From: Saccharopolyspora gloriosae
GTDB taxonomy: Bacteria > Actinomycetota > Actinomycetes > Mycobacteriales > Pseudonocardiaceae
Reading direction: 5' to 3'
Length of the DNA stretch: 64,000 bases
Assembly: GCF_014203325.1 (NCBI RefSeq)
Contig: NZ_JACHIV010000001.1
Span: forward strand, 434,001 to 498,000
The translations under genes and the position numbers were made by a program. The notes under the pieces were generated by a model. It was given only the letters and a program-made list of their open reading frames with translations, did no database searches and was not told the origin of the DNA. Below, in pieces: positions 43,840 through 60,215 of this stretch (its first letter is position 1; each line of letters opens with the position of its first letter).

Positions 43840-43855
43840 GAGCAATCGTTTTCTC
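43840..43855. promoter_or_regulatory. LacI-type operator over the ABC importer start site
   Basis: GAGCAATCGTTTTCTC. Its reverse complement, GAGAAAACGATTGCTC, matches the site at 59954-59969 beside the LacI gene at 15 of 16 positions. The central CG with flanking A/T is the LacI-family pattern. Its place right after the -10 box suits repression. Confidence 0.65.
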
Positions 43856-43907
43856 GTGTTCGTCGGTTGCTTCGGGTGACAGCGGTCGGATGGCGGGGGG
43901 AACTCGA

Positions 43908-45494
43908 ATGACGGCGCCACTGGTAGAGCTGACCGGCATCACCAAACGCTACGGCGGTGTCCTGGCGTGCGACGGTGTGGACCTGACCGTGCACGAGGGC
44001 GAAGTGCACGCGCTGCTGGGGGAGAACGGCGCGGGCAAGTCCACGTTGATGCGCGTGCTCTCCGGCGACATCGCCGACTACGAGGGCACCGTCGCGGTCG
44101 ACGGGAACCCGGTGCGGTTCGCGAAGCCCTCGGATGCCCAGCAGGCCGGCATCGCGATGATCCACCAGGAGCTCGACCTGGTGCCCGCGCTGTCGGTCGC
44201 CGACAACCTCTACCTGGGCCGCGAGCTGCGCCGGGCCGGTGTGGTGGACCGCCGCCGGATGGCGCAGCGGACCCGCGAGCTGCTCCAGCGCACCGGCATC
44301 GACCTCGACCCGTCGCGCCCGGTGGGCGAGCTGCGGGTGGGCGAGCAGCAGCTGGTGACGATCGCGCGGGCGCTGCTGCTGGAAGCCAAGGTCCTGATCA
44401 TGGACGAGCCGACCTCGGCGCTGTCGAACTCCGAGGTGCAGCGGCTGTTCGCGGTGATCTCCGAGCTGCGCAGGCGCGGCACCGGCATCGTCTACATCTC
44501 GCACCGGATGGACGAGATCGGCGCCGTCGCCGACCGGGCGACGGTGCTGCGCAACGGCCGGTGGGTGGCCGAGTTCGACGCTCGCGACCTCACCGCGGAG
44601 CAGGCGGCGGAGGCGATGGTGGGCCGCTCGGTGCGCACCTTGTTCCGCAACCAGGACGAGAGCCCGCCCGGTGACGAGCTGCTGTCGGTGTCGGACTTCC
44701 GGGTGCGGCCGCGCAGGCACCGGGTGGGCAGGCGGGAACCCGACGGCATCGACGTGTCGGTGCGGGCCGGCGAGATCGTCGGCGTGTGCGGGTTGCTCGG
44801 GTCGGGGCGCACGGAGCTGCTGGAGTCGTTGTTCGGCGCCGGTTCGGCGGGGCGCTGGGAGGGCTCGGTGCTGCTGGACGGGCAGCCGGTGCGGCCCGGC
44901 GGCCCCCGCGAGGCGTTGCGCAAGGGCATCGCGTTCGTCCCGGAAGACCGCCGCGCCGCGGGCTTGGTGCTGGGGCACTCGGTGCAGGCGAACATGGTGC
45001 TCTCGGTGGTGGACCGGCTCAGATTCGGTGGCCTGGTGCGGCGGAGTTCGGAGGCGGGCGAGACGGAGCGCAGCGTGCGGCGGCTGAAGGTGAAGCTGGG
45101 CCGCATCGCCGATCCGGTGGGCACCTTGTCCGGCGGGAACCAGCAGAAGGTCGTGTTCGGCCGGATGCTGCTGACCGAACCGCGGCTGCTGCTGCTGGAC
45201 GAGCCGACGCGCGGCGTGGACATCGGCGCGAAGGCGGAGATCTACGAGCTGCTGGGGGAGATCGCCGCGCGGGGCATCGGCGTGCTGCTGGCGTCCTCGG
45301 AGCTGCCGGAGCTGACCGGCGTGTGTCACCGCGTGGTGGTGCTGCGGCACGGCCGAAGCGTGGCGGAGTTCGACACCACCCAGGCCGGTGAAGCCGAATT
45401 GTTGGCCGCCGCGATGGGGGAAAAGGTGTCGCAGGACGAGTCATCGGCTGTCGAGGCGGGGCGCGGCCCCGTCGCGGGGGGAGGCGCACGATGA
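43908..45494 (+). CDS. Sugar ABC transporter ATP-binding protein (RbsA/XylG type, two nucleotide-binding domains)
   Basis: A 528-residue tandem ATPase powering a ribose-type (CUT2) sugar importer. The first domain has Walker A GENGAGKST, signature RVGEQQLVTIA and Walker B VLIMDEPTSAL. The second has the degenerate Walker A GLLGSGRTEL usual for this class, signature LSGGNQQK and Walker B LLLLDEPTRGVD. ATG 43908 follows a GGGGGGA ribosome site. Its last codons overlap the permease start (ATGA). A promoter and a LacI-type operator lie just upstream. Confidence 0.95.
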   Translation: MTAPLVELTGITKRYGGVLACDGVDLTVHEGEVHALLGENGAGKSTLMRVLSGDIADYEGTVAVDGNPVRFAKPSDAQQAGIAMIHQELDLVPALSVADNLYLGRELRRAGVVDRRRMAQRTRELLQRTGIDLDPSRPVGELRVGEQQLVTIARALLLEAKVLIMDEPTSALSNSEVQRLFAVISELRRRGTGIVYISHRMDEIGAVADRATVLRNGRWVAEFDARDLTAEQAAEAMVGRSVRTLFRNQDESPPGDELLSVSDFRVRPRRHRVGRREPDGIDVSVRAGEIVGVCGLLGSGRTELLESLFGAGSAGRWEGSVLLDGQPVRPGGPREALRKGIAFVPEDRRAAGLVLGHSVQANMVLSVVDRLRFGGLVRRSSEAGETERSVRRLKVKLGRIADPVGTLSGGNQQKVVFGRMLLTEPRLLLLDEPTRGVDIGAKAEIYELLGEIAARGIGVLLASSELPELTGVCHRVVVLRHGRSVAEFDTTQAGEAELLAAAMGEKVSQDESSAVEAGRGPVAGGGAR

Positions 45495-46540
45495 GCGAGC
45501 AGACGCACGAGCGGGAGGCTTCGCCGAGCGCACCGGAGCCACCTCGGGGCCCGTCGCGCCGCGAGGTGGCGGAGACGCTGTTCCGGTTCCAGAGCTTCTT
45601 CGGCCTGGTCGCGGTGTTCCTCGCCGCGATCGTGCTGTCCCCGCGCGGCGACGACGGCCAGATCTTGTTCCTGACCAGCGACAACCTGTTCAACATCGTG
45701 CGCGCGGTGTCGGAGATCGGGATCATCGCGGTCGGTTTGACGTTCGTGATCCTGATCGGCGGCATCGACCTGTCGGTGGGCTCGGTGCTGGGGCTGGCCG
45801 CGGTGGGGTCGGCGGTGCTGCTGGTCAACGACGACTTCGGGGTGCTGCTGGCGGCGCTGCTGGTGCTGCTGATCGGGTTGATCTTCGGCGTGCTGCAGGG
45901 CGCGGCGGTGGCGCTGCTGGGCGTGCAGGCGTTCATCGTGACGCTGGCCGGGTTGAACATCGCGCGCGGTCTGGCGCGGATGTGGTCGGGCGGCGAGACC
46001 GTGCAGATCTCCTACGGCGACGGCGAGGGCCAGGCGCCGATGCTGTTCTCCCTGTTGGGGGAGCGCACGTTCGGCGGTGTGGTGCCGATCCCGGCGTTGA
46101 TCTTCGCGGTGGTGGCGGTCGCGGCGATCCTGTTCCTGCGCTACAGCGCCTACTCGCGGCACCTGTACGCGATCGGCGGCAACGAGAAGGCCGCGCGCCT
46201 GTCCGGTGTGCCGGTGAACCGGGTGAAGATCGTCGCGTTCGCGCTGTCCGGTTTCTGCGCCGCGCTGGCGGGCATCGTGCACGCGGGTCAGCTCAACGCG
46301 GGCAGCCCGAACGACGGGCTGGCCTACGAGCTCGACGGCATCGCGGCGGTCGTGGTCGGTGGCACCAGCCTGGCAGGTGGGCGCGGGTCGGTGGTGGGCA
46401 CGATCGCGGGCGCGCTGCTGCTGGGCATCCTCAACAACATCCTGAGCCTCAACAGCGTCGACACCGACATGCAGTTGCTGATCAAGGGTCTGGTGATCGT
46501 GGCCGCCGCGGCGTTGCAGCGGCTGCGCCCCACGGCCTGA
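45491..46540 (+). CDS. Sugar ABC transporter permease (RbsC type)
   Basis: A 349-residue inner-membrane permease with about ten hydrophobic segments. CUT2 hallmarks: VGLTFVILIGGIDLSVGSVL early, GVQAFIVTLAGLNIARGLA in the middle, then GGNEKAARLSGVPVNRVKI (the ATPase-contact loop) and VVVGGTSLAGGRGSVVGTIA. It overlaps the ATPase gene by four bases. With only one permease gene it should act as a homodimer. Confidence 0.95.
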   Translation: MSEQTHEREASPSAPEPPRGPSRREVAETLFRFQSFFGLVAVFLAAIVLSPRGDDGQILFLTSDNLFNIVRAVSEIGIIAVGLTFVILIGGIDLSVGSVLGLAAVGSAVLLVNDDFGVLLAALLVLLIGLIFGVLQGAAVALLGVQAFIVTLAGLNIARGLARMWSGGETVQISYGDGEGQAPMLFSLLGERTFGGVVPIPALIFAVVAVAAILFLRYSAYSRHLYAIGGNEKAARLSGVPVNRVKIVAFALSGFCAALAGIVHAGQLNAGSPNDGLAYELDGIAAVVVGGTSLAGGRGSVVGTIAGALLLGILNNILSLNSVDTDMQLLIKGLVIVAAAALQRLRPTA

Positions 46541-46655: not shown

Positions 46656-47666
46656 ATGCGAAAGACAACGAGGTCTGCGTTCGCAGCCGCTTGCGCCGCC
46701 TTGGCCGTCACCGCCGCGGCGTGCGGCACGACGAGCGAGAACACCGGCCAGGCCCAACCGCAGGATCCGCGGCAGAGCTGCGGTGGCCCGGACGGCAAGT
46801 ACACGATCGGCATGAGCCAGGCGAACCTCGCCGAGCCGTACCGGGTGCGGATGGACGCGGACATCCGCAAAGCGGCGGAGCAGGTGCCGCAGTTCGAGGA
46901 CGTGCAGTTCTCGGACGCGGGCAAGGACAACGCCAAGCAGGTCAGCGACGTGGAGTCGTTCCTGACCAAGCAGGTCGACCTGCTGATGATCTCGCCGAAC
47001 GAGGCGGCACCGCTGACCGACGTGGTGCGCAAGGCATACAACTCGGGCACTCCGGTGGTGCTGCTGGACCGCAAGGTCAACGGGGACGCGTACACCACGT
47101 ACATCGGTGTGGACAACGTCGACATCGGCAGGCAGGCCGGGGAGTACTTCAAGGACGTGCTGTTCCCGGACGGCGGCAAGATCCTGGAGATCAGGGGCCT
47201 GTCCGGGTCGACGCCGGCCGGTGAGCGCCACGACGGCTTCATGCAGGGCATCGAGGGCTCGAAGATCGAGATCATCGGGCAGGGCGACGGGGACTGGGAG
47301 CGGTCGCTGGGCCAGGAGAAGATGGACGCGCTGCTCAAGGCTCACCCGGACGCGCAGGCGGTGTACTCGCACAACGACCCGATGGCCGAGGGCGCGTACC
47401 TGGCGGCGGAGGCGGCCGGTCGGGCGCAGCAGCTGAAATTCGTCGGCATCGATGGCCTGCCGATCGAGGCCGGCGGTATTCGTTCCGTGGAGCAAGGACG
47501 TTTGCAGGCCACCTTCCTCAATCCGACGGGCGGCGAGGAGGCCGTCGAGGCGGCGAAGAAGATCCTGGTGGATTGCCGGCCGACGGAGAAGAAGCAAACC
47601 CTTCCTACGGAATTGATCACGAAGGAGAACGCGGGCGAGGTCTACGCCCGGTTGAATCAGGGTTGA
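46656..47666 (+). CDS. Sugar-binding lipoprotein of the ABC importer
   Basis: A 336-residue periplasmic-binding-protein-like lipoprotein. The signal peptide ends in a lipobox (TAAACG). The mature part is a type I sugar-binding fold: YTIGMSQANLAEPYRVRMDA, VDLLMISPNEAAPLTD, PVVLLDRKVNG, AVYSHNDPMAEGAY and KFVGIDGLPIEAGG. The charged DRK and NDPMAEG residues are the usual monosaccharide contacts. ATG 46656 follows GGAAGGAAG. It closes the importer operon, 115 bp after the permease. Confidence 0.95.
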   Translation: MRKTTRSAFAAACAALAVTAAACGTTSENTGQAQPQDPRQSCGGPDGKYTIGMSQANLAEPYRVRMDADIRKAAEQVPQFEDVQFSDAGKDNAKQVSDVESFLTKQVDLLMISPNEAAPLTDVVRKAYNSGTPVVLLDRKVNGDAYTTYIGVDNVDIGRQAGEYFKDVLFPDGGKILEIRGLSGSTPAGERHDGFMQGIEGSKIEIIGQGDGDWERSLGQEKMDALLKAHPDAQAVYSHNDPMAEGAYLAAEAAGRAQQLKFVGIDGLPIEAGGIRSVEQGRLQATFLNPTGGEEAVEAAKKILVDCRPTEKKQTLPTELITKENAGEVYARLNQG

Positions 47667-48054: not shown

Positions 48055-50625
48055 ATGAGAGACCGCAGTAGTGACGCGCTGCGCGCTGCGAAACGGCTGC
48101 CGAGGAGGTTCGGCGCGTTTCTCGGTGTCGCGTCCCTGGCGGCCGCCGCGATGGTCGCTGATTCCGGCCACGGCCCGACGCAGGCCGCCGCTCAGGGTTC
48201 GGCGCAGCAGCGCGCGGCGGACAAGGGCAGCGTCGGCTGGGACACCTACCGCGAGCCGGACGGTCTGGCCCAGCTGCGCGGCTCGGAGCAGACGGGCCAG
48301 TTCTCCAGCTTCGCCCGCGACGGCAGCAACGACGACGGTTTCGAAGGCACCTTCTCCTGCCTGCGCGAGAGCGACCGCGGCTGCGTGATCGCGGAACGGG
48401 CCGGTGCGGGCGAGATCTCCTCGATCTGGTTCACCCGCGAACCGTGGGGCGACGTGACCGGCACCGGCAACATCGTGATCGAGCTGGACGGCCGCACGGT
48501 GCTCGACGCCCCGCTGATCGACGTGGTCAGCGGCCGGGTCGGCGCGCCGTTCGAATGGCCGCTGGTCGGCAACGCCGACGATTCGGCGGGCGGCGCGGTG
48601 ATCAAGGTGCCGATGCCGTACCGCGAGTCGATGCGGGTGACGGTGCAGAACAACCCGAACTTCTACCACGTGGACTACCGCTCCTTCGGCGACGCGGAGG
48701 GCGTGGACACCTTCGACCCGTCGGACCCCGCCGAGGACGTGCTGGCGCGGCTGCGGATGTTCGGCGTCGCGGACCCGAAGGGCACCGACCCGGAGGCGCA
48801 GCCGACCCGCCGCGACTTCGGCGTCGTCCCGGGCACGGCGGCTCCGGTGGCGCAGATCGAGGGGCCTGGGCAGATCAACGAGCTGCGGCTGCGCATCCCG
48901 CAGATCGTGCCGAGCCCGCGGGTCGTCGACGACGGTCGCGCGTTCGGCGCGGGCGGCGGCAGCCGGTTCGACGCGGCGGTGGCCCCGGACAACGAGGGCG
49001 TGCGCATCGTGCGCCGCTCCGACCCGCAGGTCGCCGACCAGGTGGCCACCCTCAGCGTGGACGGCGCCCCCGCGGGTGAGTGGCGCAGCGGTCCGGCGGC
49101 GCCGGGCGGTTGGGCGGTGCAGGCGATCGACGTGCCCGCCGAGCTCACCGCGGGCAAGTCCTCGGTGGAGGTCGCGAGCCGGTTCGTGTCCTCGTCGCTG
49201 GACGTCAACGAGTTCCGCTACGACGTGCAGAGCCTGGTCGACGGCGAGTGGGTGCGCACCGACGTGCTCGACGTGGGCCCCGCCCATCCCGGTGAGGAGG
49301 CGGCGCACGGCTACCGCATCGACAACGCGGTGTTCGCGCGGGAGAAGCTGCTGGGCCGCTACGGCTTCAGCCCCGAGGAGGTGACCGCCTCGGAGCACGT
49401 GCTGGAATCGGCGCGGTTGCGCATCACCTTCGACGGCAAGACGACGGTGGACGCCCCCATCGGCGAGTTCTTCGGCTCCGGCCTCGGTGAGTACGACGTC
49501 CGCAGCATGATGACGTCGATCGATCCGGGCGACGGCGGTTGGTACACCTCGTGGTGGCCGATGCCGTTCAGCCAGAGCGCGACCGTGGAGATCGTCAACG
49601 GCGGCGGCGTGCCGATCGAGGGCATGACGGCGGAGGTCTCGACGGCGCCGAAGGACGTCGACGAGAACACCGGCTACTTCAACGCCACGCACCACCGCGG
49701 CCGGACCGTGGAGGGCCAGGACTGGAACTTCCTGGACGCGAAGGGCTCGGGCACGTTCTACGGCGTGACGCACACGATGCGCGGCCTGATCCCGCCGAAC
49801 GCGGCGGCCACGCACCGCAACCAGCCGTTGTCGATGCCGGAGACGAACGCGGTCGCCAACCAGCGCAACTACTTGGAGGGCGACGAGCGGTTCTACGTCA
49901 ACGGTTCGGCGAGCCCGGCGTGGCACGGCACCGGCAGCGAGGACTACTACGAGTCGGGCTGGTACTTCCGCGACGGCACGACGTTCTCGATGCCGCTGGC
50001 CGGCAACCCGGCGCACGAGCTCAACGGTGACGGCTGCCAGTACGACTGCACGGGCGCGTACCGCTTGCAGGTGCCGGACGCGATGCCGTTCAACGACGGC
50101 CTGATCGCGGACATCGAGCACGGTCCGAACAACGACGAGCCGGGCGACTACAGCTCGACGGCGTACTGGTACGGCGGGCATCCGGTGTCGCAGGAGAAGG
50201 TCGACGACCTCGACCTGTCGGACCGCGGCAGCCGCGATTCGCACGGTTATGAGGCGGGCGGCGAGACGGTCGAGCCGTTGCAGTCCCGCTTCGAGGGAAC
50301 CGATGTGGAGCGCAGCGGCCAGGTGGCGGCGTCGACGGGTCCGGTGAGCTTCGACGTGGAGCTCGGCGAGGACAACGCGGGTGCCCACTTGCGCAGGCTC
50401 AGCGATCAAGCGCAGGCCTACCAGCAGGTGGAGGTGCGGGTCGACGGCGAGTCGGCGGGCACCTGGTTGCAGCCCTTGGGCAACGGCACGCACCGCTGGC
50501 TGGACGACGGTTTCGAGCTGCCCGCCGCGCTGACGGAGGGCAAGGGCAAGGTGCGGGTGGAACTGATCCCGGTGCAGGGCGCCCCGCCGTGGACGGCTTC
50601 GCGGTACGAGGTGTTCCAGTACTGA
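48055..50625 (+). CDS. Secreted DUF2961 (GH172-type) protein
   Basis: 856 residues. The ATG at 48055 is chosen for GGGGAGGG upstream. A basic N-terminus and hydrophobic stretch (LPRRFGAFLGVASLAAAAMV) form a signal peptide. Two jelly-roll-rich halves follow: an N-terminal DUF2961 core (SSIWFTREPWGD, YHVDYRSFGDAEG) and a later part with HGTGSEDYYESGWYF (~624-638), the DUF2961 signature holding likely catalytic acids. The family is GH172, whose characterised members act on fructofuranose dianhydrides or D-arabinofuranosides. The C-terminal ~100 residues are a beta domain. It follows a sugar importer. Confidence 0.82.
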   Translation: MRDRSSDALRAAKRLPRRFGAFLGVASLAAAAMVADSGHGPTQAAAQGSAQQRAADKGSVGWDTYREPDGLAQLRGSEQTGQFSSFARDGSNDDGFEGTFSCLRESDRGCVIAERAGAGEISSIWFTREPWGDVTGTGNIVIELDGRTVLDAPLIDVVSGRVGAPFEWPLVGNADDSAGGAVIKVPMPYRESMRVTVQNNPNFYHVDYRSFGDAEGVDTFDPSDPAEDVLARLRMFGVADPKGTDPEAQPTRRDFGVVPGTAAPVAQIEGPGQINELRLRIPQIVPSPRVVDDGRAFGAGGGSRFDAAVAPDNEGVRIVRRSDPQVADQVATLSVDGAPAGEWRSGPAAPGGWAVQAIDVPAELTAGKSSVEVASRFVSSSLDVNEFRYDVQSLVDGEWVRTDVLDVGPAHPGEEAAHGYRIDNAVFAREKLLGRYGFSPEEVTASEHVLESARLRITFDGKTTVDAPIGEFFGSGLGEYDVRSMMTSIDPGDGGWYTSWWPMPFSQSATVEIVNGGGVPIEGMTAEVSTAPKDVDENTGYFNATHHRGRTVEGQDWNFLDAKGSGTFYGVTHTMRGLIPPNAAATHRNQPLSMPETNAVANQRNYLEGDERFYVNGSASPAWHGTGSEDYYESGWYFRDGTTFSMPLAGNPAHELNGDGCQYDCTGAYRLQVPDAMPFNDGLIADIEHGPNNDEPGDYSSTAYWYGGHPVSQEKVDDLDLSDRGSRDSHGYEAGGETVEPLQSRFEGTDVERSGQVAASTGPVSFDVELGEDNAGAHLRRLSDQAQAYQQVEVRVDGESAGTWLQPLGNGTHRWLDDGFELPAALTEGKGKVRVELIPVQGAPPWTASRYEVFQY

Positions 50626-50637
50626 GCGATTCCCGCT

Positions 50638-50675: not shown

Positions 50676-50880
50676 ATGTCCGGGGGTAGCAGAGCGGGCA
50701 GGCGGTCAGCGGCCACTGGTTCGGGGTGGGTGGCGCGCAGACCGCGCCGCAGTCGGCGAGGCCGAGCCGATTCCGCTGCGCGCCATGGGAGATCCGCCGC
50801 GCGTTGGCCGGGGAGACGTGGTGCACCCGGTCACTGGTGAACACGCCGGGCCAGCCGCGGGCGGGGTCAGGCGACGACAT
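50674..50880 (-). CDS. Small Cys-rich protein, unrecognised
   Basis: 68 residues. Four cysteines occur in the C-terminal half (LADCGAVCAP and ACPLCYPRT), giving a possible CxxxC/CxxC metal or disulfide site. The middle (HHVSPANARRISHGAQRNRL) is basic. The ATG at 50880 overlaps the end of the upstream gene by 14 bases, which argues for a coupled pair. No family is recognised. The stop touches the strong terminator stem. Confidence 0.5.
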   Translation of the reverse strand: MSSPDPARGWPGVFTSDRVHHVSPANARRISHGAQRNRLGLADCGAVCAPPTPNQWPLTACPLCYPRT

Positions 50881-51229
50881 GAGAGGGCAGCCAGAGGGCA
50901 CTCGCGCTCCCGGTGCGGCCGGGCGCGCCGGGAGCGCCGTGCGGGGGAAGTTCGAGCAGTTCGGTGACGACGTCGGCGACGTTCCCGTGCCGTTGCCACA
51001 GGGGTTGCGGAGTGCCCCGGTCGAGGTCCGCGAGCCGGTAGCGGGCGGCCGTCGCGTCGTGCCGGTCGTGCGCGACGTAGGTGTCCATCGCGCCGTGCGA
51101 GGCCCGGAATCCGTGCACCGAGAGGACTTCGCCCCGGCTCGGCACGTGCTGGAACCGGAACCCGGCCCGCACGCTGGCGCGGATCGCCGCGAGGTGCGGG
51201 AGGAACGAGGACTCAACTCCGGACAGCAT
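50867..51229 (-). CDS. Unrecognised protein divergent from the XRE regulator
   Basis: 120 residues. The ATG at 51229 follows GGGGGTGG and begins MLSGVESSFLPHLAAIRASV. Protein-like blocks include GFRFQHVPSRGEVLSVHGFR, MDTYVAHDRHDATAARYRL, WQRHGNVADVVTELLELPPH and a Pro/Gly-rich end. Genes like this recur beside XRE/DUF397 pairs in pseudonocardiads in my memory, but I know no function. It shares a ~200-bp divergent promoter region with the regulator. Confidence 0.6.
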   Translation of the reverse strand: MLSGVESSFLPHLAAIRASVRAGFRFQHVPSRGEVLSVHGFRASHGAMDTYVAHDRHDATAARYRLADLDRGTPQPLWQRHGNVADVVTELLELPPHGAPGAPGRTGSASALWLPSHVVA

Positions 51230-51433
51230 TGCCACCCCCGGAAATCGGCTGGAGACGTGGAGCCGGTGGCCCGGTCGGGGAGGAGGGGAGACCACCGACC
51301 CCACGTCAGCGACGTCGGATCGCCGCTAAGTCGAATCTATAAGCGGCAATGCCATCTAGATAGTCGCCCTTTAGGGGGATCATGTTTTCGAGCGGTACGC
51401 GGCAGACTGTCGCGGAGCGATCTAGGAGGCAGC

Positions 51434-52270
51434 GTGACGAACCCGGGGCCGGTCATCCGCAGGCTCGAACTCGGCTTGGAACTGCGCAGGATGCGTGAAG
51501 CGGCCGGAGTGGAGCCGAAGGAGATCGCCGACCTGCTGCGCTGGGACGTCTCCAAGGTGTCCAAGCTGGAGAACGGTGCCCGCACGATCTCCGCCGCCGA
51601 GCTGGACCGGATCGCCGAGCGCTGCGGTGTCGACGGCGACCGGACCGAACGCATCCACCAGCTGGCGAAGGAAGCGCGCAAGCGCGGCAGCTACGGGCGG
51701 GTGCAGGACTGGGCACGGTCATACGTGGGCATGGAATCGGTGGCCGGCGAACTGCTGATCCACTACGGCGACATGATCCCGGGCATCTTGCAGACGAAGG
51801 CCTACGCCGAAACATTGCTCAAGCAGGCGATCTCCGTGCGACCGGAGGACGTGGGGCGGATCGCGGACAGTCGCGTCGCTCGCCGCGCGCGGCTCACCTC
51901 GCCGAATCCTCCGGAGTTGTCGGTCGTCCTGGGCGAACCGGCGATTCGCGGTGTCGTGGGAAACGGCGAGGTCATGCGCGAACAGCTCGACGTGCTGCTG
52001 GACGTGGCGAAGCTGAAGCACGTGACGTTGCAGGTCCTGCCGCTGTCCGACTGGGCGCACCTGGCGTTGGGATCGCCGTTCACCATCCTCAACCTCGCCG
52101 AGCCGGAGAAGACGATCCTCTACCTGGAGGGTCTGACGAACGCGGATTATCTTGCTGGTCCGCAACACCTCAAGTCCTATACCGTTGCGTTCAACCGTTT
52201 GAGGGTCGCAGCGCTCAGCGAGTCCGCTTCGGCCGAGCTCATCCGGGACGCACTCGGGAAGCTCGAATAG
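51434..52270 (+). CDS. XRE-family regulator with DUF5753 domain
   Basis: 278 residues. The N-terminal helix-turn-helix (GLELRRMREAAGVEPKEIAD, LLRWDVSKVSKLENGAR) is followed by the DUF5753 sensor-like domain (YGDMIPGILQTKAYAETLL, VVLGEPAIRGVVG, VTLQVLPLSDWAHLALGSPF). GTG 51434 follows AGGAGG. With the downstream DUF397 gene it makes the BldB/AbaA-type regulator and partner pair that is multiplied in actinomycetes and affects development and secondary metabolism. Confidence 0.92.
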   Translation: MTNPGPVIRRLELGLELRRMREAAGVEPKEIADLLRWDVSKVSKLENGARTISAAELDRIAERCGVDGDRTERIHQLAKEARKRGSYGRVQDWARSYVGMESVAGELLIHYGDMIPGILQTKAYAETLLKQAISVRPEDVGRIADSRVARRARLTSPNPPELSVVLGEPAIRGVVGNGEVMREQLDVLLDVAKLKHVTLQVLPLSDWAHLALGSPFTILNLAEPEKTILYLEGLTNADYLAGPQHLKSYTVAFNRLRVAALSESASAELIRDALGKLE

Positions 52271-52499: not shown

Positions 52500-52589
52500 G
52501 AGCGCTCGGCACGGTTGCTCGGCTGTTGTGGCGTCGGAGTTTCCGCGAATCAACACCGGTACCGCCTGGTCTAGGTAGGGTGCCGACCC

Positions 52590-53297
52590 GTGGATCAACG
52601 GTGGCAGCTGAACGAGGAAGATCTAGAGCCCGAGGCGGCCCGGAACTCCGAGCGATCGGACTCGGCGGACGACCTGCTCCGCGGCCGGGACCCGGCGGGT
52701 GTCGTCACGGTCCACGTGACCGACACCGGCGAGTTCCGCTCGGTCGAGCTGGCCTCCGGCTGGAAGGGCACGACTGATCCGCGCAGCCTGTCCACGCACG
52801 TCGTAGCCGCCGCGAACGACGCGACCATGCGAGCGGCGACGGCACAGGCCGAGCTCGTGCAATCCGCTCCGCCAGAGGCCCCGGCGAAGCCGGTCGAAGG
52901 CATCGCCGCCTCCGATGAGCCGATCACGGCCGCGGACGCGATGCAGCTCATCAACGCCGTGTCCGCTGACCTGGAGGCGTTCAACCAGCGGATGACCGAC
53001 GCCGTCGGCGCGATGGTGTCCGGCCAGAGCAGCGGCGGCCACGTCCGGGGAACGTCGAAACAAGGCCAGATCCTGGACCTCGTCATCGACGCGACCTGGT
53101 GCAGCGCCGCGCGCAACAGCGAGATCGAACGCGAACTCGCCGACGTCCTACGAGTCCTGCGCAGCAAAACCTCCCCGGGCGATGTGGCCAACGGACCGCA
53201 GAGTCCGGCGATCTCCCAACTGTTCGCGCTGGCGAGCGACCCGCAGCGATTCCTCCGCCGCCTCGGCTTCGTCACCGACCCCCCGAAGGGACCCTGA
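52590..53297 (+). CDS. Secretion-associated YbaB/EbfC-like protein
   Basis: 235 residues. The first ~90 residues resemble the YbaB/EbfC fold (GVVTVHVTDTGEFRSVELAS, LSTHVVAAANDATMRAATAQ), as seen in YbaB-like genes that head type VII secretion clusters in actinomycetes. The C-terminal part is helical and unrecognised. GTG 52590 has a weak ribosome site. The stop overlaps the next start (TGATG), so it is the first gene of the secretion-type operon. Confidence 0.72.
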   Translation: MDQRWQLNEEDLEPEAARNSERSDSADDLLRGRDPAGVVTVHVTDTGEFRSVELASGWKGTTDPRSLSTHVVAAANDATMRAATAQAELVQSAPPEAPAKPVEGIAASDEPITAADAMQLINAVSADLEAFNQRMTDAVGAMVSGQSSGGHVRGTSKQGQILDLVIDATWCSAARNSEIERELADVLRVLRSKTSPGDVANGPQSPAISQLFALASDPQRFLRRLGFVTDPPKGP

Positions 53298-53632
53298 TGG
53301 CACCCCCGAACGGAGAAGGCATCAAAACCGCCCTCGACGCCATGCACACCGACGCAGCCCTGTGGCGCGAACAAGCCGAAGCGATGAACGGCCCAAAGCA
53401 GGCGGTGGAAGCCGCGCGGATCAACGACGCTGACAGGTTCTACTTCAGTGATGAGCTCGGCTTGGACGACACGTTGGAAGAGCTGCGCACCGCGATCGGA
53501 GACTTGCTCGGCCAAGGGCAGCAATATTTCAACAAGATAGCCGACGATCTGACAGCTGCGGCCGAGCAGTACCAAGCCGACGACGACGCCGCCGTACACG
53601 AGCTGAACAATCTTCTTGGAGAACACCCGTGA
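53297..53632 (+). CDS. EspC/WXG100-like small helical protein
   Basis: 111 residues, almost wholly helical. An N-terminal helix (IKTALDAMHTDAALWREQAE) and a C-terminal heptad-like helix (LLGQGQQYFNKIADDLTAAA, EQYQADDDAAVHELN) frame a central acidic segment. Length and composition fit the EspC-like small substrates of type VII secretion. It overlaps both neighbours, with the next start at 53629 (GTGA). Confidence 0.65.
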   Translation: MAPPNGEGIKTALDAMHTDAALWREQAEAMNGPKQAVEAARINDADRFYFSDELGLDDTLEELRTAIGDLLGQGQQYFNKIADDLTAAAEQYQADDDAAVHELNNLLGEHP

Positions 53633-54408
53633 CCGCAGCCGCCGGAGATGACGTCATCCACATGGTGAGCGGAAAGCTCACCGAAGTGCAAGAGATGGTC
53701 CAGAAGCTCTACGACGGCGTCAATCAAGTGTTGAGCTGGGTGCCCGAAGCCTTCCTGCGCCTGATCGAACCGATCAAAAAGGGGATGGAAGAGTTCGGGA
53801 AGATCCATTTGAAGATTTTCGAGGACATCAACGAATTTGTTCAAAAACCTGGTCAAGTTGACCTTCTGCGTGAGATTTCGAAGCAGTGGTCCGATCAGGT
53901 TTCGGCGTCGCTGAAAGATGTCGCCGGTGCTATCAACTTGGATAAGCATCGCAGTAACATCGAATGGGAAGGGCGAGCTGCCGAGGCGTACAAGGCTCTT
54001 GTCCCCGGGCAGTCCGGTGCGGTGACCAGCATTCAGGGTGCCGCCGACAAGATGGTTACGGCGCTAGATTCGTTAGCCAACGCCATTGAGATGTTCTGGG
54101 TGGCTGTCTGGGTCGCGGTGGTTACATTCGCGGTGGGGCTGGTGGGTGCAATCGCCGGGTTGGCGGGGATCGTCACGGCACCGGCGGCTGTCGTCGGTAT
54201 CGCCGGAGTCGCTTCCGTGGTCGTCGGTCTTATCGGGGCTGCTGTGACTGCTTTCTACGCCACCGTTCAGCCGATCAACTCGCAGGTCCAGATCATCAGC
54301 AGTGCCATCGATGGCCTAGGTGAGCAGTGGACGAAGCCGAACAATGGCGTCGATCTGGGTGACGGCAGTGCCAGCGATGGTGATGGGTCCAACTGGGAGG
54401 TCCGATGA
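53629..54408 (+). CDS. WXG-motif protein with C-terminal membrane segments
   Basis: 259 residues. A long helical N-terminal half contains NIEWEGRAAEAYKAL, the W-x-G turn of WXG100-type proteins followed by a Y-containing helix. About 50 hydrophobic residues then form two or three membrane helices (FWVAVWVAVVTFAVGLVGAI, VGIAGVASVVVGLIGAAVTA), and an acidic Gly/Ser tail ends it. The layout resembles membrane-targeting type VII substrates. It overlaps both neighbours by 4 bp. Base composition is visibly lower in G+C than the flanks. Confidence 0.7.
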   Translation: MTAAAGDDVIHMVSGKLTEVQEMVQKLYDGVNQVLSWVPEAFLRLIEPIKKGMEEFGKIHLKIFEDINEFVQKPGQVDLLREISKQWSDQVSASLKDVAGAINLDKHRSNIEWEGRAAEAYKALVPGQSGAVTSIQGAADKMVTALDSLANAIEMFWVAVWVAVVTFAVGLVGAIAGLAGIVTAPAAVVGIAGVASVVVGLIGAAVTAFYATVQPINSQVQIISSAIDGLGEQWTKPNNGVDLGDGSASDGDGSNWEVR

Positions 54409-54941
54409 TTCCGATTCCTACTGGCCCTGGGCCGACGCCTAGGTTCATTCCTGTGTCGCCCGAGTGGGAACGCACGAAGAAGCTGCGTCTGCTGCTCACG
54501 GGTTTAGCGCTGATGATCGGATACCCGATCATTGCGGTGGTCGGCGTGACATGGACTTTTTTCCTGCCGGTCTCTGAGAACACGCTTTCTATCGGGGTTG
54601 CGCTGACGGTAGGAATGTTCGCATTATTTGGCTGGCTGCTGGGTTTGTCCGTCTTGTTGAGTCAGTCGTATTTCCGCGGCGGGTTCTTCGACGTCGCCGG
54701 ATCCAGGGTACTCGTCCGGCAGGCGTTGGTGTTGTGCATCGGGACTGTCGTCATGAACGGTTTTTCCGAGGCTCTCCTGGCGCTCATCATCAGTACTTCA
54801 GCAGATCGAAGCAGTGGGCCGATCGTGTTGGACGCGGAACTCGTGCTCTACCTGGTATTCATGGCGGCCCCGATGTTCATGGCTGGAATCGCGTGGTGGC
54901 TGATGTTCAAGTCAGTGCGCCCTGAGCCTCCACAGTGGTGA
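54405..54941 (+). CDS. Four-helix membrane protein A of the secretion cassette
   Basis: 178 residues. A short Pro-rich start (IPIPTGPGPTPRFIPVSPEW) precedes four membrane segments (LLLTGLALMIGYPIIAVVGV, IGVALTVGMFALFGWLLGLS, ALVLCIGTVVMNGFSEALLA, VLYLVFMAAPMFMAGIAWWL). The family is not recognised. It is a paralogue in layout of the next gene. ATG 54405 overlaps the upstream stop. The context suggests a membrane partner of the WXG-type protein. Confidence 0.7.
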   Translation: MIPIPTGPGPTPRFIPVSPEWERTKKLRLLLTGLALMIGYPIIAVVGVTWTFFLPVSENTLSIGVALTVGMFALFGWLLGLSVLLSQSYFRGGFFDVAGSRVLVRQALVLCIGTVVMNGFSEALLALIISTSADRSSGPIVLDAELVLYLVFMAAPMFMAGIAWWLMFKSVRPEPPQW

Positions 54942-54956
54942 TGAAGGAAGGCTCTG

Positions 54957-55463
54957 ATGGTCGTCTCCATCCCGTACGGCCCGCCGCCACCGCCGAGGTA
55001 CATCCCGGTTTCCGCTGCGTGGATTCGACACGCGAAGCGATGCCTGCTGGGGGCAGGACTGCCGTTGTTGTTCGTCTCCGCGATGGTGGGCGCGGCTGGA
55101 ATTCCGGCGCCGTTCTTCCTGGTTTCCGTGGGCAGCTTCGCGGTGCTCACAGCGATGCTGACAGCAGTGGCAGCGCTGTTCGGCTTCATGCACGGCGTTT
55201 TCACGCTTACGGCGCGGTCGTACTTCAAGACCGGATGGCTGGAGGCGAACGGTGCAACCGGCAGCCGCCGCGGTTCGGTCATTCTGATGGGAGGCGTGTT
55301 CGCCTTGAGCGCGCTGGCGGCGTTTTCCCTCCACTTGGATTCCGAAGGCGGCGTCGAACTTCTCGTGTACACGGCTTTCCTGTTCCTGCCCGCGTTCCTG
55401 TCGTTCGTGGCCACGATCGTCACGTTCACGGCATTGCGATCGGATATTCCGGGACTGCGGTGA
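54957..55463 (+). CDS. Four-helix membrane protein B of the secretion cassette
   Basis: 168 residues with the same plan as protein A: Pro-rich start (IPYGPPPPPRYIPVSAAWIR), then four hydrophobic segments. Shared features (RYIPVS/RFIPVS start, SYFKTGW/SYFRGGF after helix 2) indicate an old tandem duplication. ATG 54957 follows GAAGGAAGG. No function is known. Confidence 0.7.
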   Translation: MVVSIPYGPPPPPRYIPVSAAWIRHAKRCLLGAGLPLLFVSAMVGAAGIPAPFFLVSVGSFAVLTAMLTAVAALFGFMHGVFTLTARSYFKTGWLEANGATGSRRGSVILMGGVFALSALAAFSLHLDSEGGVELLVYTAFLFLPAFLSFVATIVTFTALRSDIPGLR

Positions 55464-55801
55464 GCGGTTCGGCTCGGCACGGTGCCGTCTTGCTCGTTCC
55501 AGGTGGCAGCACGGTCACGGTCCGGTTGAGATCTCACTCTCCCCATCGGCGCAGTCCTGGTCGGCTCGGAGCCGTCGGCACACCCGCTGATCATCGCTGT
55601 GAATCGCCGTCAATGCAGGTCAACGGAATGTGCAAATCTCTGCCTTGGAAACCATTGGGCTGAACGGGTGGCGATCACCCTCGGCGCGTCATCAACTACT
55701 GTGTTGATCGTCATACCGGTAGTTGAGTAGGTTCGCGCACGCGTGGATGCCCGAGCGTGCACCATGCTCAGCTGACGCGTGGACATGCCAGGGGAGGAAG
55801 C
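55464..55801. other. Intergenic region inside the secretion cassette
   Basis: 338 bases between protein B and the second EspC-like gene, splitting the cassette into two transcription units. An A/T-richer stretch near 55687-55735 (ACTGTGTTGATCGTCATACC) may hold the promoter of the second unit. No gene is seen. Confidence 0.45.
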
Positions 55802-56125
55802 ATGACCGGGTTCAGAATTGACCCAGAAGCACTTGAAGGTGCGATCCGGAAGCTCGAAGATGCTCGGGATGAAGCTAGGCGACTGACGCAGAGTTCTCAA
55901 ATGGCGATGCCAGGTGAGTTGACCGCGAAAGACGCTACAACTGCGACGGCGCGAGAGCTGTTTGAAGCGCGCGCAAGTGGGGTCGATGCCTCGTTGCAGG
56001 GAACGGCTGGGGAAATTGTTAAAAAGCTGACGGCGAAAATCGAGTCATATCGCCAGACCCTGGAAGAGTACAGGCAGGCTGACGACAATGCGACGGTTGA
56101 CGCCAATCAAGTTGGGCGGGCGTAA
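55802..56125 (+). CDS. EspC-like small helical protein (second copy)
   Basis: 107 residues, helical throughout: FRIDPEALEGAIRKLEDARD, RELFEARASGVDASLQGTAG, IVKKLTAKIESYRQTLEEYR, ending DDNATVDANQVGRA. This is the pattern of type VII EspC-like/DUF2580-type substrates. ATG 55802 follows GGGGAGGAAGC, a very good ribosome site. The body is rich in A/T-ending codons. Confidence 0.68.
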   Translation: MTGFRIDPEALEGAIRKLEDARDEARRLTQSSQMAMPGELTAKDATTATARELFEARASGVDASLQGTAGEIVKKLTAKIESYRQTLEEYRQADDNATVDANQVGRA

Positions 56126-56131
56126 AGGTAA

Positions 56132-56719
56132 ATGAAGATCTGGAATTCGTCTGCGGTGCGCCTCCTGTCCTTGCTGGCGTCGTCGGCGATCCTTGTCTCT
56201 GGCTGCGCTATTGGAGATCAAGCCGGGGGTGATGGCTCTCAGTCGACGGTGCCGAATGAGAAGCCGTCGGAAGTCAAGGATCCGCGCGAAGCCTCGGGGG
56301 CGAGTCCGTGTGACCTTTTGAAAGCTGGCGACGCTCAAGCTATGGGGTTGGAGCCGACGGGTGAGGTCACACCGAATCAGCTGGACCCGACGATGCCGGA
56401 CTCGTGTGAGTGGCAGTCTCCTGGTGGGGAGACCTCGGTCGCGTTGAGCGCTATCCCTGGGCGTTCCATTCAGCAGTATCGGGAGTCTGCGGCGAGTTAT
56501 GTCGACTTCGCTGAGATGGAGATCGCCGGGCATCCTGCGGTGCAAGCGAATAACGCTCCGCCGGAATCGGGTAGTTGTGGAATCTATCTCGCCACCAAGG
56601 ATGATCAGATCTTGTTTTCCTTTGCGTTTGACACTCCCCCAGGTGAGAAGTTTGATCCGTGCTCGTATGCGAAGGGTGCACTCGAGCGGTCTGTTCCCGG
56701 TCTTCCTTCGGCGAAGTGA
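56132..56719 (+). CDS. DUF3558 lipoprotein
   Basis: A 195-residue lipoprotein with lipobox LVSGC (Cys25). The DUF3558 core has PCDLLKAGDAQAMGL, SCEWQSPGGETSVALSAI, SCGIYLATKDDQILFSFAF and DPCSYAKGALERSVPGLP, with cysteines that probably pair. Such lipoproteins often accompany type VII clusters in actinomycetes; the role is unknown. It starts six bases after the EspC-like gene. Many codons end in A/T. Confidence 0.85.
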   Translation: MKIWNSSAVRLLSLLASSAILVSGCAIGDQAGGDGSQSTVPNEKPSEVKDPREASGASPCDLLKAGDAQAMGLEPTGEVTPNQLDPTMPDSCEWQSPGGETSVALSAIPGRSIQQYRESAASYVDFAEMEIAGHPAVQANNAPPESGSCGIYLATKDDQILFSFAFDTPPGEKFDPCSYAKGALERSVPGLPSAK

Positions 56720-56731
56720 AAAAGGTTGAAT

Positions 56732-58057
56732 ATGTCTTCTCCTGTATCCGAATTTAGCGGGATTACTGGCTCTGGCATGTGCTTCGCCGGTGTGGCGAAG
56801 CAGTTGCGCGCAGATATGGGCGGGTCGCCTGACTCTGGATCGCTGCCGAGCGCGATGAACCACGGAAGTGCTGCGTGGGAACAGGCAAAGAGTCGATTTG
56901 AGCAGTTGGCGACGGACATCGAGGCCGCTCTTGGCGACGCCGAGTCCGCGCACGAAGGCCGTGCTGCCGACGCGGCGAACGCATCGATCAACGAGATCGT
57001 GCCGCACGCCAGGGCCGCCTCTGAGACCGCCGGAGCAGTGAGCAAGGCGCTGGCGAATCAGGCCACCACGCAGAACTCGACGTTCCACGAGATTCCCGGC
57101 GAGGGCGAGACGCTCAGCAATGGTCGTCCGGTTCAGCTTGATCCGCCGGAGAAGGGGTGGGTCGACGACTACGACGACACCTGGTACCTCGGCTGGGCGA
57201 GTGATTACGAAGAGCGGCAAGAAGACTTCCAGCTGACGAACGACCGGGCGACCGAGGTTCAGGAGCGCTACAAGCGCGAGACCGAGGCCAACCTCGCCGC
57301 GGTTCCCGAGTTCCAGCCGATGCCCGGTGAGCCGGCCAACGCGACTCCGGTCGGTGCCACGACTCCTTCCGCGCAGAGTGCGATGGGGAGTTCGCAGTTC
57401 AGCAGCCTTTCCTCCGGTGGTGGGGCGCCTGCGGGCAGTTCCTCGTCGTGGGCTTCGTCGCCCGTCTCCGGTGGCGGTGCTCCGTCGCTGGGTGGCGGGT
57501 CCGGTGGTGCGGGGGCTCCTCCGGCCGGGTCCGGTTCGGCTTGGGCGCCTGCTCCGCCGAGCGGTGGTCTGCCTCCGGGTGTCGTGCGCGGTCCCGACGG
57601 AACGCTGTACCGGCAGAACCCGCGCACGGGGGCCTGGGAGCGGCAGAACCCGCACAACGGTCGCTGGGCGCCGTCGCCGGGCGGTGGTCCTGGTGGCGCC
57701 GCGGGCGGTCGTGGTGCCGGTGGTTCCGCCGGTGGTGCCGGTGGTCGCGCGGGTGGTCTAGGTGCCGGTGCCGGTGCCGGTGCCGGTTCTGGGGCCGGTG
57801 GTCGTGCCGGGGTCGGCGGTCTCGGTGGCGCCGGTGGCGGTGCGTCCGCGGCCGGTGGTGCCGGAGCGGCCGGCCGCGGTGGCGCGGGTGCGCCCGGTGC
57901 GGGCATGGGCGGTGCCGGTCAGCGCGGCGGTCAGCAGGGCGAGGACGCCGAGCGCGAGCGGCCCAGCTGGCTCATCGAGGAGGAAGACGTGTTCACCAAC
58001 GACATGCGGGCGGTGGCCCCGCCGGTCTTCGGCGACTGGGAGAACCAGGACCGCTGA
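56732..58057 (+). CDS. PPE-like protein with Gly-rich C-terminal region
   Basis: 441 residues. The N-terminal ~160 residues are helical (WEQAKSRFEQLATDIEAALG, AADAANASINEIVPHARAAS) like PPE-type type VII substrates. A linker with WVDDYDDTWYLGWASDYEE follows, then ~200 residues of Gly/Ala/Pro-rich low complexity, and a conserved-looking acidic end (RPSWLIEEEDVFTNDM, PPVFGDWENQDR). The ATG at 56732 follows AAAAGG. It overlaps the EspG-like gene by one base (TGATG). Confidence 0.8.
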   Translation: MSSPVSEFSGITGSGMCFAGVAKQLRADMGGSPDSGSLPSAMNHGSAAWEQAKSRFEQLATDIEAALGDAESAHEGRAADAANASINEIVPHARAASETAGAVSKALANQATTQNSTFHEIPGEGETLSNGRPVQLDPPEKGWVDDYDDTWYLGWASDYEERQEDFQLTNDRATEVQERYKRETEANLAAVPEFQPMPGEPANATPVGATTPSAQSAMGSSQFSSLSSGGGAPAGSSSSWASSPVSGGGAPSLGGGSGGAGAPPAGSGSAWAPAPPSGGLPPGVVRGPDGTLYRQNPRTGAWERQNPHNGRWAPSPGGGPGGAAGGRGAGGSAGGAGGRAGGLGAGAGAGAGSGAGGRAGVGGLGGAGGGASAAGGAGAAGRGGAGAPGAGMGGAGQRGGQQGEDAERERPSWLIEEEDVFTNDMRAVAPPVFGDWENQDR

Positions 58058-58881
58058 TGAGCCGAGGCAGAATGTCGATCAGCCCGCTCGCCGCCGCCTA
58101 CCTGTGCGAGCGGTTCGACAGCCACATCCACCCGCTGCTGCGGGTGGGGCGGCTGGCGGGCGAACCCACCGAGGACGAGCGCACCCGCGCTTCCCGCGCG
58201 GGCAGCCAGGACTTGGCGCGCCTCGGGTACCTGGAACGCGATGATCTGCATCCGTTCCTGGACGACGCGTGGCAGCTGCTGACCAAACCGCCGCTGGCGG
58301 TGGGGGTGGCGGTGCACGCCAAGCGAGGCACCTCGTTCAACGCGGTCTGCGTCGAACAGGGCCGCGCCACGGTGCAGGCGTACCAAGCCGACGGTGAGAA
58401 CAACGATGACCTGCAGGACATCGTGCTCAGCAGGCAGGAGTACGGCGGCCCGGCGGGCAACGCGGTGGAGCTGATCGGCGATCTGACCCCGGGGCGCGGC
58501 GGAACGGCGAGCGTGCCGACCGAAGTGCTCGACAACGCCACCAAGCGCAGGCGCAACAACCCGAACGGGACGTTGCTCAGCGCGCTCACCGGTGCGGGGG
58601 TGAAGAGCGCCGACGCGCGAGTGCTGGCGACGGTGCTCACCGCCGAACGCGAGCTGGACGGGGTGTTCACCGCGCGCAGCCACGACCGGCGAGTCGGACG
58701 CACGCGCCGGCCGCCGTACTCGGTGTCGTTCTTCACCGGCGCGGACGGTTGCTACCTGACGCAGAAGCGCGAAGGCGGCGACGGGCGGCAGTGGTTCACC
58801 GTGGCCCCCGCCGACCGGCGCAAGCTCACCGCGAAGATCGACGAAATGCTCCGGACGGTGGCGCTGCCCGCCGTCCGGTGA
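58057..58881 (+). CDS. EspG-like chaperone of type VII secretion
   Basis: A 274-residue EspG family protein. ESX EspG chaperones bind PPE proteins in the cytosol and target them for export. Blocks: SPLAAAYLCERFDSHIHPLL, QDLARLGYLERDDLHPF, GVAVHAKRGTSFNAVCVEQG, DGCYLTQKREGGDGRQWFTV. It follows directly after the PPE-like gene, its natural client. An alternative start lies at 58072 (MSISPLAA). It ends one base before the convergent LacI gene. Confidence 0.88.
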   Translation: MSRGRMSISPLAAAYLCERFDSHIHPLLRVGRLAGEPTEDERTRASRAGSQDLARLGYLERDDLHPFLDDAWQLLTKPPLAVGVAVHAKRGTSFNAVCVEQGRATVQAYQADGENNDDLQDIVLSRQEYGGPAGNAVELIGDLTPGRGGTASVPTEVLDNATKRRRNNPNGTLLSALTGAGVKSADARVLATVLTAERELDGVFTARSHDRRVGRTRRPPYSVSFFTGADGCYLTQKREGGDGRQWFTVAPADRRKLTAKIDEMLRTVALPAVR

Positions 58882-58882
58882 C

Positions 58883-59875
58883 TCAGGTGGAGCGCTCGGT
58901 GCTGCCGCGCGCGACGAGGTGAGCCGACAACGTTCGCGTGGTCGGCTCACCCCGGTCACCACCGATGCGGCGCAGCAACAACTGCGCCCCCAGCGAACCC
59001 ATGTCGTAGGCGGGCTGGGAGACCACGCTCAACGGCGGATCCAGCAACGTGGCCCACGGCGCGTCGTCGAACGCGATCACGCCCACGTCGCGGCCCGCCC
59101 GCAGGCCCAGCTCGCCGAGCGTTTCCAGCACGCCCACCACCATCGCGTTGTTCGCGACCAGCAACGCGTCCGGCGGCTCGTCCTGGTCCAGCAGCTGCCG
59201 CGCCGCGCGCCGGGCGCCGGCCGCGCGGAACTCCGTGTGCCGGACCAAGCCCAAGTCCGCGAGCCCCGCCGCTTCCAAGCCCTCCCGGTACCCGTTGAGG
59301 CGCGCGTCCGCGGTGGGCATGCCGCTCGGACCGGTGAGGCAGCCGATCCGGACGTAGCCCTGCTCCGCCAAGTGCAGCGTGGCGTTCTTCGCCGCGCTGC
59401 CGCTGTTCACCAGGACCGTGTCCCCGCCTCCCGGCAGCGGCCGGTCCAGCGCGACGATCGGGGTCGCGTGCGCGCGCAGCAGCGCGGCACCCTCCTCCCG
59501 GCCGGTCGGGGACAGCAGGACGCCCGCGACGCGCTCCTGCAGCGCCACGTCCAAGTACTCGCGTTCCTTCGCCGGATCGTCGTCCGAGTTGCACAGCACG
59601 ACCGAGAAGCCGGCGGCGTGCGCGACGTCCTCCACACCTCGGGAGATCGCGGTGAAGAACGGGTTCTCCACGTCCGAGATGATCAGCGCGAGGACCGCCG
59701 TCTCCTGCTTGCGCAGGTTGCGGGCCGGTCCGTTCGGGCGGTAGCCGAGCTCGTCGGCCGCCGCCGCGACCCGCGCGGCCAGCTCCGGATCCACGGTGCT
59801 CTTGCCGTTGAGCGCGCGGGAGACCGTCGCGGTGGACACGCCGGCCCTGGCCGCCACGTCACTGATCGTCGCCAC
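58883..59875 (-). CDS. LacI-family transcriptional regulator of sugar metabolism
   Basis: 330 residues. The helix-turn-helix VATISDVAARAGVSTATVSR is followed by the hinge (DELGYRPNGPARNLRKQ) and a sugar-binding core (ALIISDVENPFFTAISRGVE, VVLCNSDDDPAKEREYL, GVIAFDDAPWATLLDPPLSV). GTG 59875 follows AGGAGG with a short spacer and gives the family's normal start. It is divergent from the isomerase gene. A LacI-type operator lies between them and nearly matches one at the importer promoter. Confidence 0.93.
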   Translation of the reverse strand: MATISDVAARAGVSTATVSRALNGKSTVDPELAARVAAAADELGYRPNGPARNLRKQETAVLALIISDVENPFFTAISRGVEDVAHAAGFSVVLCNSDDDPAKEREYLDVALQERVAGVLLSPTGREEGAALLRAHATPIVALDRPLPGGGDTVLVNSGSAAKNATLHLAEQGYVRIGCLTGPSGMPTADARLNGYREGLEAAGLADLGLVRHTEFRAAGARRAARQLLDQDEPPDALLVANNAMVVGVLETLGELGLRAGRDVGVIAFDDAPWATLLDPPLSVVSQPAYDMGSLGAQLLLRRIGGDRGEPTTRTLSAHLVARGSTERST

Positions 59876-60215
59876 CGGACCTCCTGATGTCGGCTGGCCG
59901 CGTGGTTGCGGCGTGGATTCCTTGACAGCCTCGCCAAGCCCAGAATAACTTCCGGGAAAACGATTGCTCATAACCCGGTCGGTCATCGATGAACGAATTC
60001 GGGTGGCAGCGGCAGGCGCGGAACCCCAGCGCAGGCACGCCCGTGGCGTTCTCCGAACCCGGCCGGGCGCGGTGAGAGCCGACCCGGAACGAGATCGTTC
60101 TCGAAGCGGGGCGGCTCGTCGGCGGACCGGTCCGTTCGACGATCTCGTGGCCCGCGAACCGAAATGGCACGTCCCGACGCAACCCTGGCACGTTCCGCAG
60201 AACCTGGGAGGACCC
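59876..60215. other. Divergent promoter region of lacI and isomerase genes
   Basis: 340 bases. It holds the operator at 59954-59969 and a second near-palindrome GAACGAGATCGTTC at 60088-60101. No gene is seen. Confidence 0.55.
59954..59969. promoter_or_regulatory. LacI-type operator beside its regulator gene
   Basis: GGGAAAACGATTGCTC, a degenerate palindrome around CG. It equals the inverted importer site at 43840-43855 except at one position. It is placed ~80 bases before the LacI start, so it should allow autoregulation and control of the isomerase gene. Confidence 0.65.

Follow-up and report, generated by a model that had tools for sequence, protein, structure and literature searches.

The locus

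We analyzed a 64,000-nucleotide stretch of the Saccharopolyspora gloriosae genome (contig NZ_JACHIV010000001.1, positions 434,001 to 498,000 of the forward strand), hereafter the window. Within it, a sugar importer operon of the ATP-binding cassette (ABC) type and a distant lacI/isomerase/kinase group carry closely similar 16-bp operator-like sites, and our subject is the candidate regulon that these sites would define. The relevant features, in window coordinates, are as follows.

43808-43837, + strand: importer promoter, read from sequence as TTGACA (43808-43813), an 18-bp spacer and TAGCGT (43832-43837)
43840-43855: predicted operator 1, reading GAGCAATCGTTTTCTC on the + strand and covering the inferred start of transcription of the importer operon
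43908-45494, + strand: sugar ABC importer ATPase with two ABC domains, of the xylose/arabinose/ribose-transporter type, scoring below all NCBIfam cut-offs shown for these transporters
45491-46540, + strand: importer permease (BPD_transp_2; ribose/arabinose type)
46656-47666, + strand: sugar-binding lipoprotein-like protein (Peripla_BP_4; RbsB-like; best solved relative 2x7x, E 2.6e-66)
48055-50625, + strand: secreted-looking DUF2961/GH172 protein (PF11175, E 9.1e-71)
50726-58881, + strand: inserted cassette with an HTH_31/DUF5753 regulator, YbaB-like, WXG100-like (sub-threshold) and DUF3558 lipoprotein-like proteins, and EspG
58883-59875, - strand: LacI-family repressor with the helix-turn-helix sequence VSTATVSR
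59922-59951, + strand: isomerase-operon promoter, read from sequence as TTGACA (59922-59927), an 18-bp spacer and TAACTT (59946-59951)
59954-59969: predicted operator 2, GGGAAAACGATTGCTC, in the gap that separates lacI from the isomerase gene
60216-61631, + strand: short (471 aa) L-fucose/D-arabinose isomerase-family protein with three Fucose_iso domains
61897-63390, + strand: FGGY pentulose-type kinase resembling xylulokinase (326 bits, cut-off 380)

Two matching sites, unique in the genome

The sites at 43840 and 59954 agree at 15 of 16 positions. When the window is searched with GAGAAAACGATTGCTC, the - strand has an exact copy at 43840-43855 and the + strand a one-mismatch copy at 59954-59969, with no third match at up to three mismatches. 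In the 6,825,909-base genome the same two sites are the sole places within two mismatches, and each of the 16 further places listed has three. Site 1 lies 52 bp from the ATG at 43908. Site 2 is separated by 78 bp from the start of lacI (59875) and by 246 bp from the GTG of the isomerase gene (60216). An earlier reading made from the letters alone (the sequence-only reading) had drawn attention to this pair, noting the 15 of 16 match, a LacI-type central CG, the placement of both copies at promoters and the lack of any other copy; the site scans and coordinates bear out each of these points.

Both window sites also fit a palindromic consensus with 12 fixed positions, GAGNAANCGNTTNCTC. Allowing one mismatch in the fixed positions, this consensus matches nine places in the genome, including both window sites. 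Five of the remaining seven are inside open reading frames, one (G000:C1:3336147) is at the edge of an intergenic gap with divergent open reading frames on either side, and one (G000:C1:5372639) has no open reading frame called around it. Frequent occurrence at unrelated promoters, which the sequence-only reading had named as evidence against itself, was not found in this genome-wide scan. At two mismatches the consensus gives 172 forward matches versus 200 for a reversed control, and weak sites are therefore not callable from the motif alone.

Two further candidates were rejected. A match at G000:C1:1538508, considered as a third operator belonging to another importer, lies within ATPase codons, and the recurrent two-mismatch match GAGAAATCGATCCCGC, considered as an operator series, belongs to a dispersed repeat. 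This imperfectly palindromic repeat of about 120 bp occurs in the window at 954-1016, 4483-4589, 36298-36329 and 40767-40888, as well as at G000:C1:211423-211562 and elsewhere; 53 matches are reported in the genome, some of which are the opposite strand of the same copy.

Taken alone, the likeness of the two sites is only moderately improbable, and it is the comparison with relatives that decides. At the 70% G+C of the window, 2001 pairs of 16-mers differ at no more than one position; 104 of these pairs have at least eight A/T, and many of the pairs derive from dispersed repeats. Shuffle controls for GAGAAAACGATTGCTC at up to three mismatches gave a mean of 0.20 matches, with two or more matches in 2 of 100 shuffles.

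Conservation of the sites and of their distance from the promoter

An alignment of 13 isomerases served as the query against named genomes, and we retained the best 80 of 224 confirmed loci, an actinobacterial set that overlaps the family regions described below (L097, L098, L101 and L137 correspond to G001, G004, G030 and G013). A divergent lacI/isomerase pair is present in 49 of the 80 loci, and the gap between the two genes contains GAGNAANCGNTTNCTC exactly in 32, with one mismatch in 12, with two in 4 and not at all in 1, which amounts to 44 of 49 at up to one mismatch and 48 of 49 at up to two. DNA upstream of the importer ATPase gene is present in 40 loci, for which the corresponding counts are 13, 15, 5 and 7 (28 of 40 and 33 of 40). 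Elsewhere in the same 1,600,508 bases only 5 matches occur at up to one mismatch, along with 35 at two mismatches; of the 5, one (in L098) stands in front of a decayed importer and four are copies of a single 16-mer that recurs in Nocardia. Across 200 half-site permutations of the consensus, the mean number of loci with a match was 0.65 for the lacI/isomerase gap and 0.45 for the importer, with maxima of 23 and 25 that presumably come from permutations near-identical to the true consensus.

The 31 loci without an intact divergent lacI comprise 28 from Nocardia, with no lacI match, and 3 from Actinopolyspora, in which lacI is in pieces (L126) or absent (L133 and L144). The importer site is found in none of the 3 loci where lacI is broken or absent, versus 33 of the 37 with intact lacI (Fisher p 0.0035, a value not corrected for relatedness, these three loci being from related species and not independent). 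Regulator and importer site have thus apparently been lost together in these three Actinopolyspora loci.

The two window promoters have a common layout, the -35 box starting 32 bp before the operator in each. They agree at 6 of 6 positions of the -35 box, 4 of 6 of the -10 box and 11 of 16 of the operator (+ strand reading), and at 3 of 18 in the spacer, so that conservation between them is confined to the -35, -10 and operator elements. Across related loci, with the window counted in both sets, all 34 importer sites have a -35-like box (TTGACA with at most one mismatch, boxes having played no part in site choice) that begins 31-34 bp ahead of the operator. Among lacI/isomerase sites, 48 of 49 have such a box at 31-33 bp, L115 being the exception. 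Together, 82 of 83 sites have such a box at 31-34 bp. With the distance fixed in this way, repressor bound at the site would sit over the start of the promoter. No consistent -35 box was seen for a lacI promoter on the - strand.

These data bear directly on whether the two 16-mers resemble each other by chance. The 2001 window pairs and the two shuffles in 100 lend that explanation something, and the pair alone would not suffice to dismiss it. Conservation at both promoters across genera and the fixed distance to a -35-like box speak against it, and on these grounds we rejected chance for practical purposes, its probability being negligible.

A cassette separates genes that are contiguous in other genera

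EspG and related genes lie between the GH172 gene and lacI in the window and in all five same-genus regions (G001-G005; L079-L083), and no EspG match is present in L084-L091, eight regions that represent other genera of the family. In each of those eight, the genes for importer, lacI, isomerase and kinase occur together within the region. Seven of these regions have a GH172 gene (G031 lacks one), and gene order differs in G022. At up to one mismatch, the site is found in the lacI/isomerase gap in eight of eight and at the importer promoter in seven of eight, with none found in G031. G014 is without the isomerase and keeps lacI, the importer and the sites, again at up to one mismatch. Given this contiguity, the simplest history suggested by gene order is insertion of the cassette in the ancestor of the window's genus: the genes would once have been adjacent, and the insertion would have moved the two operators 16 kb apart.

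The sequence-only reading had proposed a single regulon split by a type VII cassette. The split holds, as does the presence of ESX-type genes (EspG, and WXG100 below threshold), whereas no core secretion component was found among the cassette proteins scanned. Its proposal of one shared regulon gains support from the retention of the site at both promoters in many genera and from the importer adjoining lacI/isomerase in all eight other-genus regions. The importer and the lacI/isomerase/kinase genes almost certainly share one regulon, as judged by comparative genomics.

Two same-genus genomes, G004 and G005, are informative about the extent of the importer operon. In both, the ATPase and permease genes are gone and the binding-protein gene survives only in pieces, while the operator and the GH172 gene are kept (L082:1000-4257 and L083:407-3664). 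Retention of these two elements despite loss of the importer suggests that the GH172 gene belongs to the operon of operator 1. The sequence-only reading had overlooked this GH172 gene, which follows the importer genes.

The cassette itself is not uniform across the genus: identity of its HTH_31 regulator is 87% in G003 and 28-30% in G001, G002, G004 and G005.

The regulator

The protein encoded at 58883-59875 combines a LacI helix-turn-helix (PF00356, 64.4 bits) with a periplasmic-binding-like sensor domain (PF13377, 116.9 bits), both over cut-off. RbsR-type models are nearest but are missed by a wide margin (216 versus 531 bits for RbsR). The recognition helix carries VSTAT in 46 of 49 orthologues, the exceptions being L120, L121 and L122. 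The predicted sites are palindromes with a central CG that overlap the promoters of the target genes.

LacI operators share a common core, and the genome has 13 LacI-family genes. The importer site might thus serve a different LacI paralogue, the likeness between the sites reflecting only the generic operator form (central CG, AA..TT). Yet no other place in the genome falls within two mismatches, and none of the 11 paralogues read among the 12 others (all except L216) has a VSTAT recognition helix. Moreover, the sites are conserved at both promoters and this particular lacI is physically linked to the importer in other genera, which makes control by a paralogue very unlikely.

We propose instead that one local LacI-family repressor binds both operators, each of which would lie over the start of a rightward sigma-70-like promoter. 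Bound repressor would block the importer-GH172 operon and the isomerase-kinase operon, and lacI itself may be autoregulated through operator 2. The repressor would leave its sites in the presence of the sugar or of the first product made from it.

Probable substrate

The isomerase matches the N1, N2 and C domains of FucI, all over cut-off (PF07881, 70.3; PF07882, 57.2; PF02952, 150.5 bits), and resembles both L-fucose and D-arabinose isomerases. It scores far under the FucI NCBIfam equivalogs (81.8 of 775 and 69.8 of 850 bits) and is, by these scores, a distant, shorter relative of FucI, not FucI itself. Relative to Escherichia coli FucI, whose metal ligands are Glu337, Asp361 and His528, residues E294 and D318 are well aligned with the first two, and E294, D318 and H442 are invariant in 13 sequences. 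The kinase falls below the curated equivalogs (326.1 of 380.25 bits for XylB; 144.8 of 428 and 116.3 of 583.25 for ribulokinase models) and on this basis is assignable only as an FGGY kinase.

The DUF2961 catalytic domain of the GH172 protein is strongly matched (PF11175, 238.5 bits versus a cut-off of 27), relatives include 7v1v, 8ah3 and 4kq7, and the N-terminus is signal-like by inspection. Passages of two studies place exo-alpha-D-arabinofuranosidases in family GH172 (PMC10115798, PMC10509167). The product of 48055-50625 is thus a probable exo-alpha-D-arabinofuranosidase, or alpha-D-fructofuranosidase.

At the window locus, GH172 is found with an importer, an isomerase and a kinase, a combination expected of a D-arabinan locus; a GH183 gene has no match there. 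The genome has two GH183 genes (away from the locus), two GH172 genes and five matches to Emb-type arabinosyltransferases. Near the GH183 gene at 356709 and the second GH172 gene at 1785854, no match to the exact site within two mismatches was found. Among the consensus GAGNAANCGNTTNCTC matches listed, which extend to about 2.3 Mb, the only one near these genes is a two-mismatch match at 360351, so that a weak site may still exist there.

The isomerase is present at E 1e-60 in 18 of 394 sampled genomes of the class, the window's own included. Of the 17 others, eight were examined: all eight have a LacI match, five a GH172-type match, two GH183 and five the site (up to one mismatch). In 23 of the 28 loci from Nocardia, a GH172-type match (60 bits or more) lies near the isomerase and kinase genes. 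One cluster, L202, contains DUF4185/GH183, LacI, DUF2961/GH172, an SBP_bac_1/8 importer, the isomerase and the kinase, and its importer was confirmed as SBP_bac_8-type. It has GH183, GH172 and this importer type in common with the D-arabinan utilization locus of Microbacterium arabinogalactanolyticum, and its set of isomerase, kinase, LacI, GH172, GH183 and SBP_bac_8 importer is that of the Microbacterium locus as far as the passages of that study describe it (PMC10509167). The Microbacterium locus is stated there to be induced by D-arabinose (PMC10509167).

Given the regulon, the gene families point to D-arabinose as the probable sugar. Secreted GH172 would cut D-arabinofuranose from D-arabinan, either the cell's own arabinogalactan or that of other actinomycetes, and the ABC importer would take up the monosaccharide. 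The FucI/D-arabinose isomerase-family enzyme would convert D-arabinose to D-ribulose, and the FGGY kinase would phosphorylate D-ribulose to D-ribulose 5-phosphate, which would feed into the pentose phosphate pathway.

The same regulon could serve another sugar, with the importer and GH172 acting on fructose or difructose anhydrides, or with a pathway for L-fucose, D-altrose or L-galactose. This alternative draws on the best solved match of the binding protein, on the GH172 relative 7v1v and on the similarity of the isomerase to L-fucose isomerases. However, fructose, being a ketose, would not require an isomerase, and an L-fucose route needs an L-fuculose-1-phosphate aldolase, which is absent from the window proteins scanned, a subset of its open reading frames. 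The pairing of this isomerase with GH183 and GH172 in L202 also argues for D-arabinose, and we regard another sugar as unlikely.

Several observations count against a D-arabinose regulon under LacI control. The binding-protein relative 2x7x is a fructose sensor domain (BT1754), an identification that our literature search did not confirm, and 7v1v is a difructose dianhydride I synthase/hydrolase, acting on fructofuranosides, so that fructose may be a substrate of the importer. Importer, lacI, isomerase and kinase occur without GH172 in several genera (for example L113, L118, L122 and G031), so that GH172 is not obligatory. The seven importer promoters without a site at up to two mismatches include four with intact lacI (L117, L129, L146 and L148), and one lacI/isomerase gap (L112) likewise has none. 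The third metal ligand, H442 for H528, is aligned only in a weak segment of 1.7 to 9.2 bits. Finally, the Microbacterium GH172 is described in the passages of PMC10509167 as having no signal sequence, unlike the longer, apparently signal-bearing protein of the window.

Nonetheless, a LacI-controlled regulon for D-arabinose/D-arabinan utilization is, as a whole, a highly plausible reading of this locus. Its in silico basis consists of the sites, their uniqueness and conservation, the promoter geometry, the ancestral contiguity and the gene families, from which we infer binding, repression, the inducer, the identity of the sugar and secretion.

Related systems and implications

The locus resembles local sugar regulons of the LacI/RbsR type in having a LacI-family gene, a central-CG palindrome over the promoter start, and importer and catabolic genes. 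It differs from RbsR-type regulons in its operator and in its downstream enzymes. Like the RhaR-type and other actinobacterial pentose and deoxyhexose regulons (PMC3870299), it is a regulon with a local regulator delineated by comparative genomics. The RhaR-type regulon serves a rhamnose pathway, unlike this one; the window kinase scores 35-39 bits as a rhamnulokinase versus cut-offs over 500, and neither it nor the isomerase belongs to the rhamnose families. Compared with the Microbacterium locus, that of the window has an RbsB-like, monosaccharide-type binding protein, no GH183 match, and a LacI regulator with mapped predicted operators, the passages of PMC10509167 naming no regulator. PUL42 of Dysgonomonas gadei is a Bacteroidota-type locus, with no LacI regulon in the passages of PMC10115798. 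A literature search, largely of titles and abstract starts, found no regulon of this make-up. Local LacI sugar regulons are a known kind; the present one, with its probable substrate, does not seem to have been described in the literature found.

A hint from one 16-base likeness has thereby become a conserved, testable regulon, and a clear example of a regulon that persisted after an unrelated, secretion-associated cassette had been inserted into it. Should D-arabinose be the sugar, the locus would supply a regulator, an operator, an importer and two catabolic enzymes for a compound that occurs chiefly in the cell walls of actinobacteria. It would also make it possible to ask whether arabinan is recycled by the very bacteria that produce it. 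Five distant genomes that carry the isomerase have no Emb match; those bacteria would therefore be scavengers, whereas Pseudonocardiaceae could also recycle. We tentatively suggest that arabinogalactan-bearing actinomycetes (Pseudonocardiaceae and their kin) might possess a dedicated, LacI-gated salvage of D-arabinose from the cell-wall D-arabinan of their own or neighboring cells, with LacI as a natural sensor of arabinan turnover.

L202 and L201 (from G180 and G230) are compact clusters with GH183, a LacI-type gene, GH172 and the isomerase-kinase pair, in genomes without Emb matches. At roughly double the length usual for GH172, the window protein has an N-terminal half that also aligns weakly with the start of a single-domain GH172, an arrangement that recalls the 1.5-domain DgGH172b of PMC10115798.

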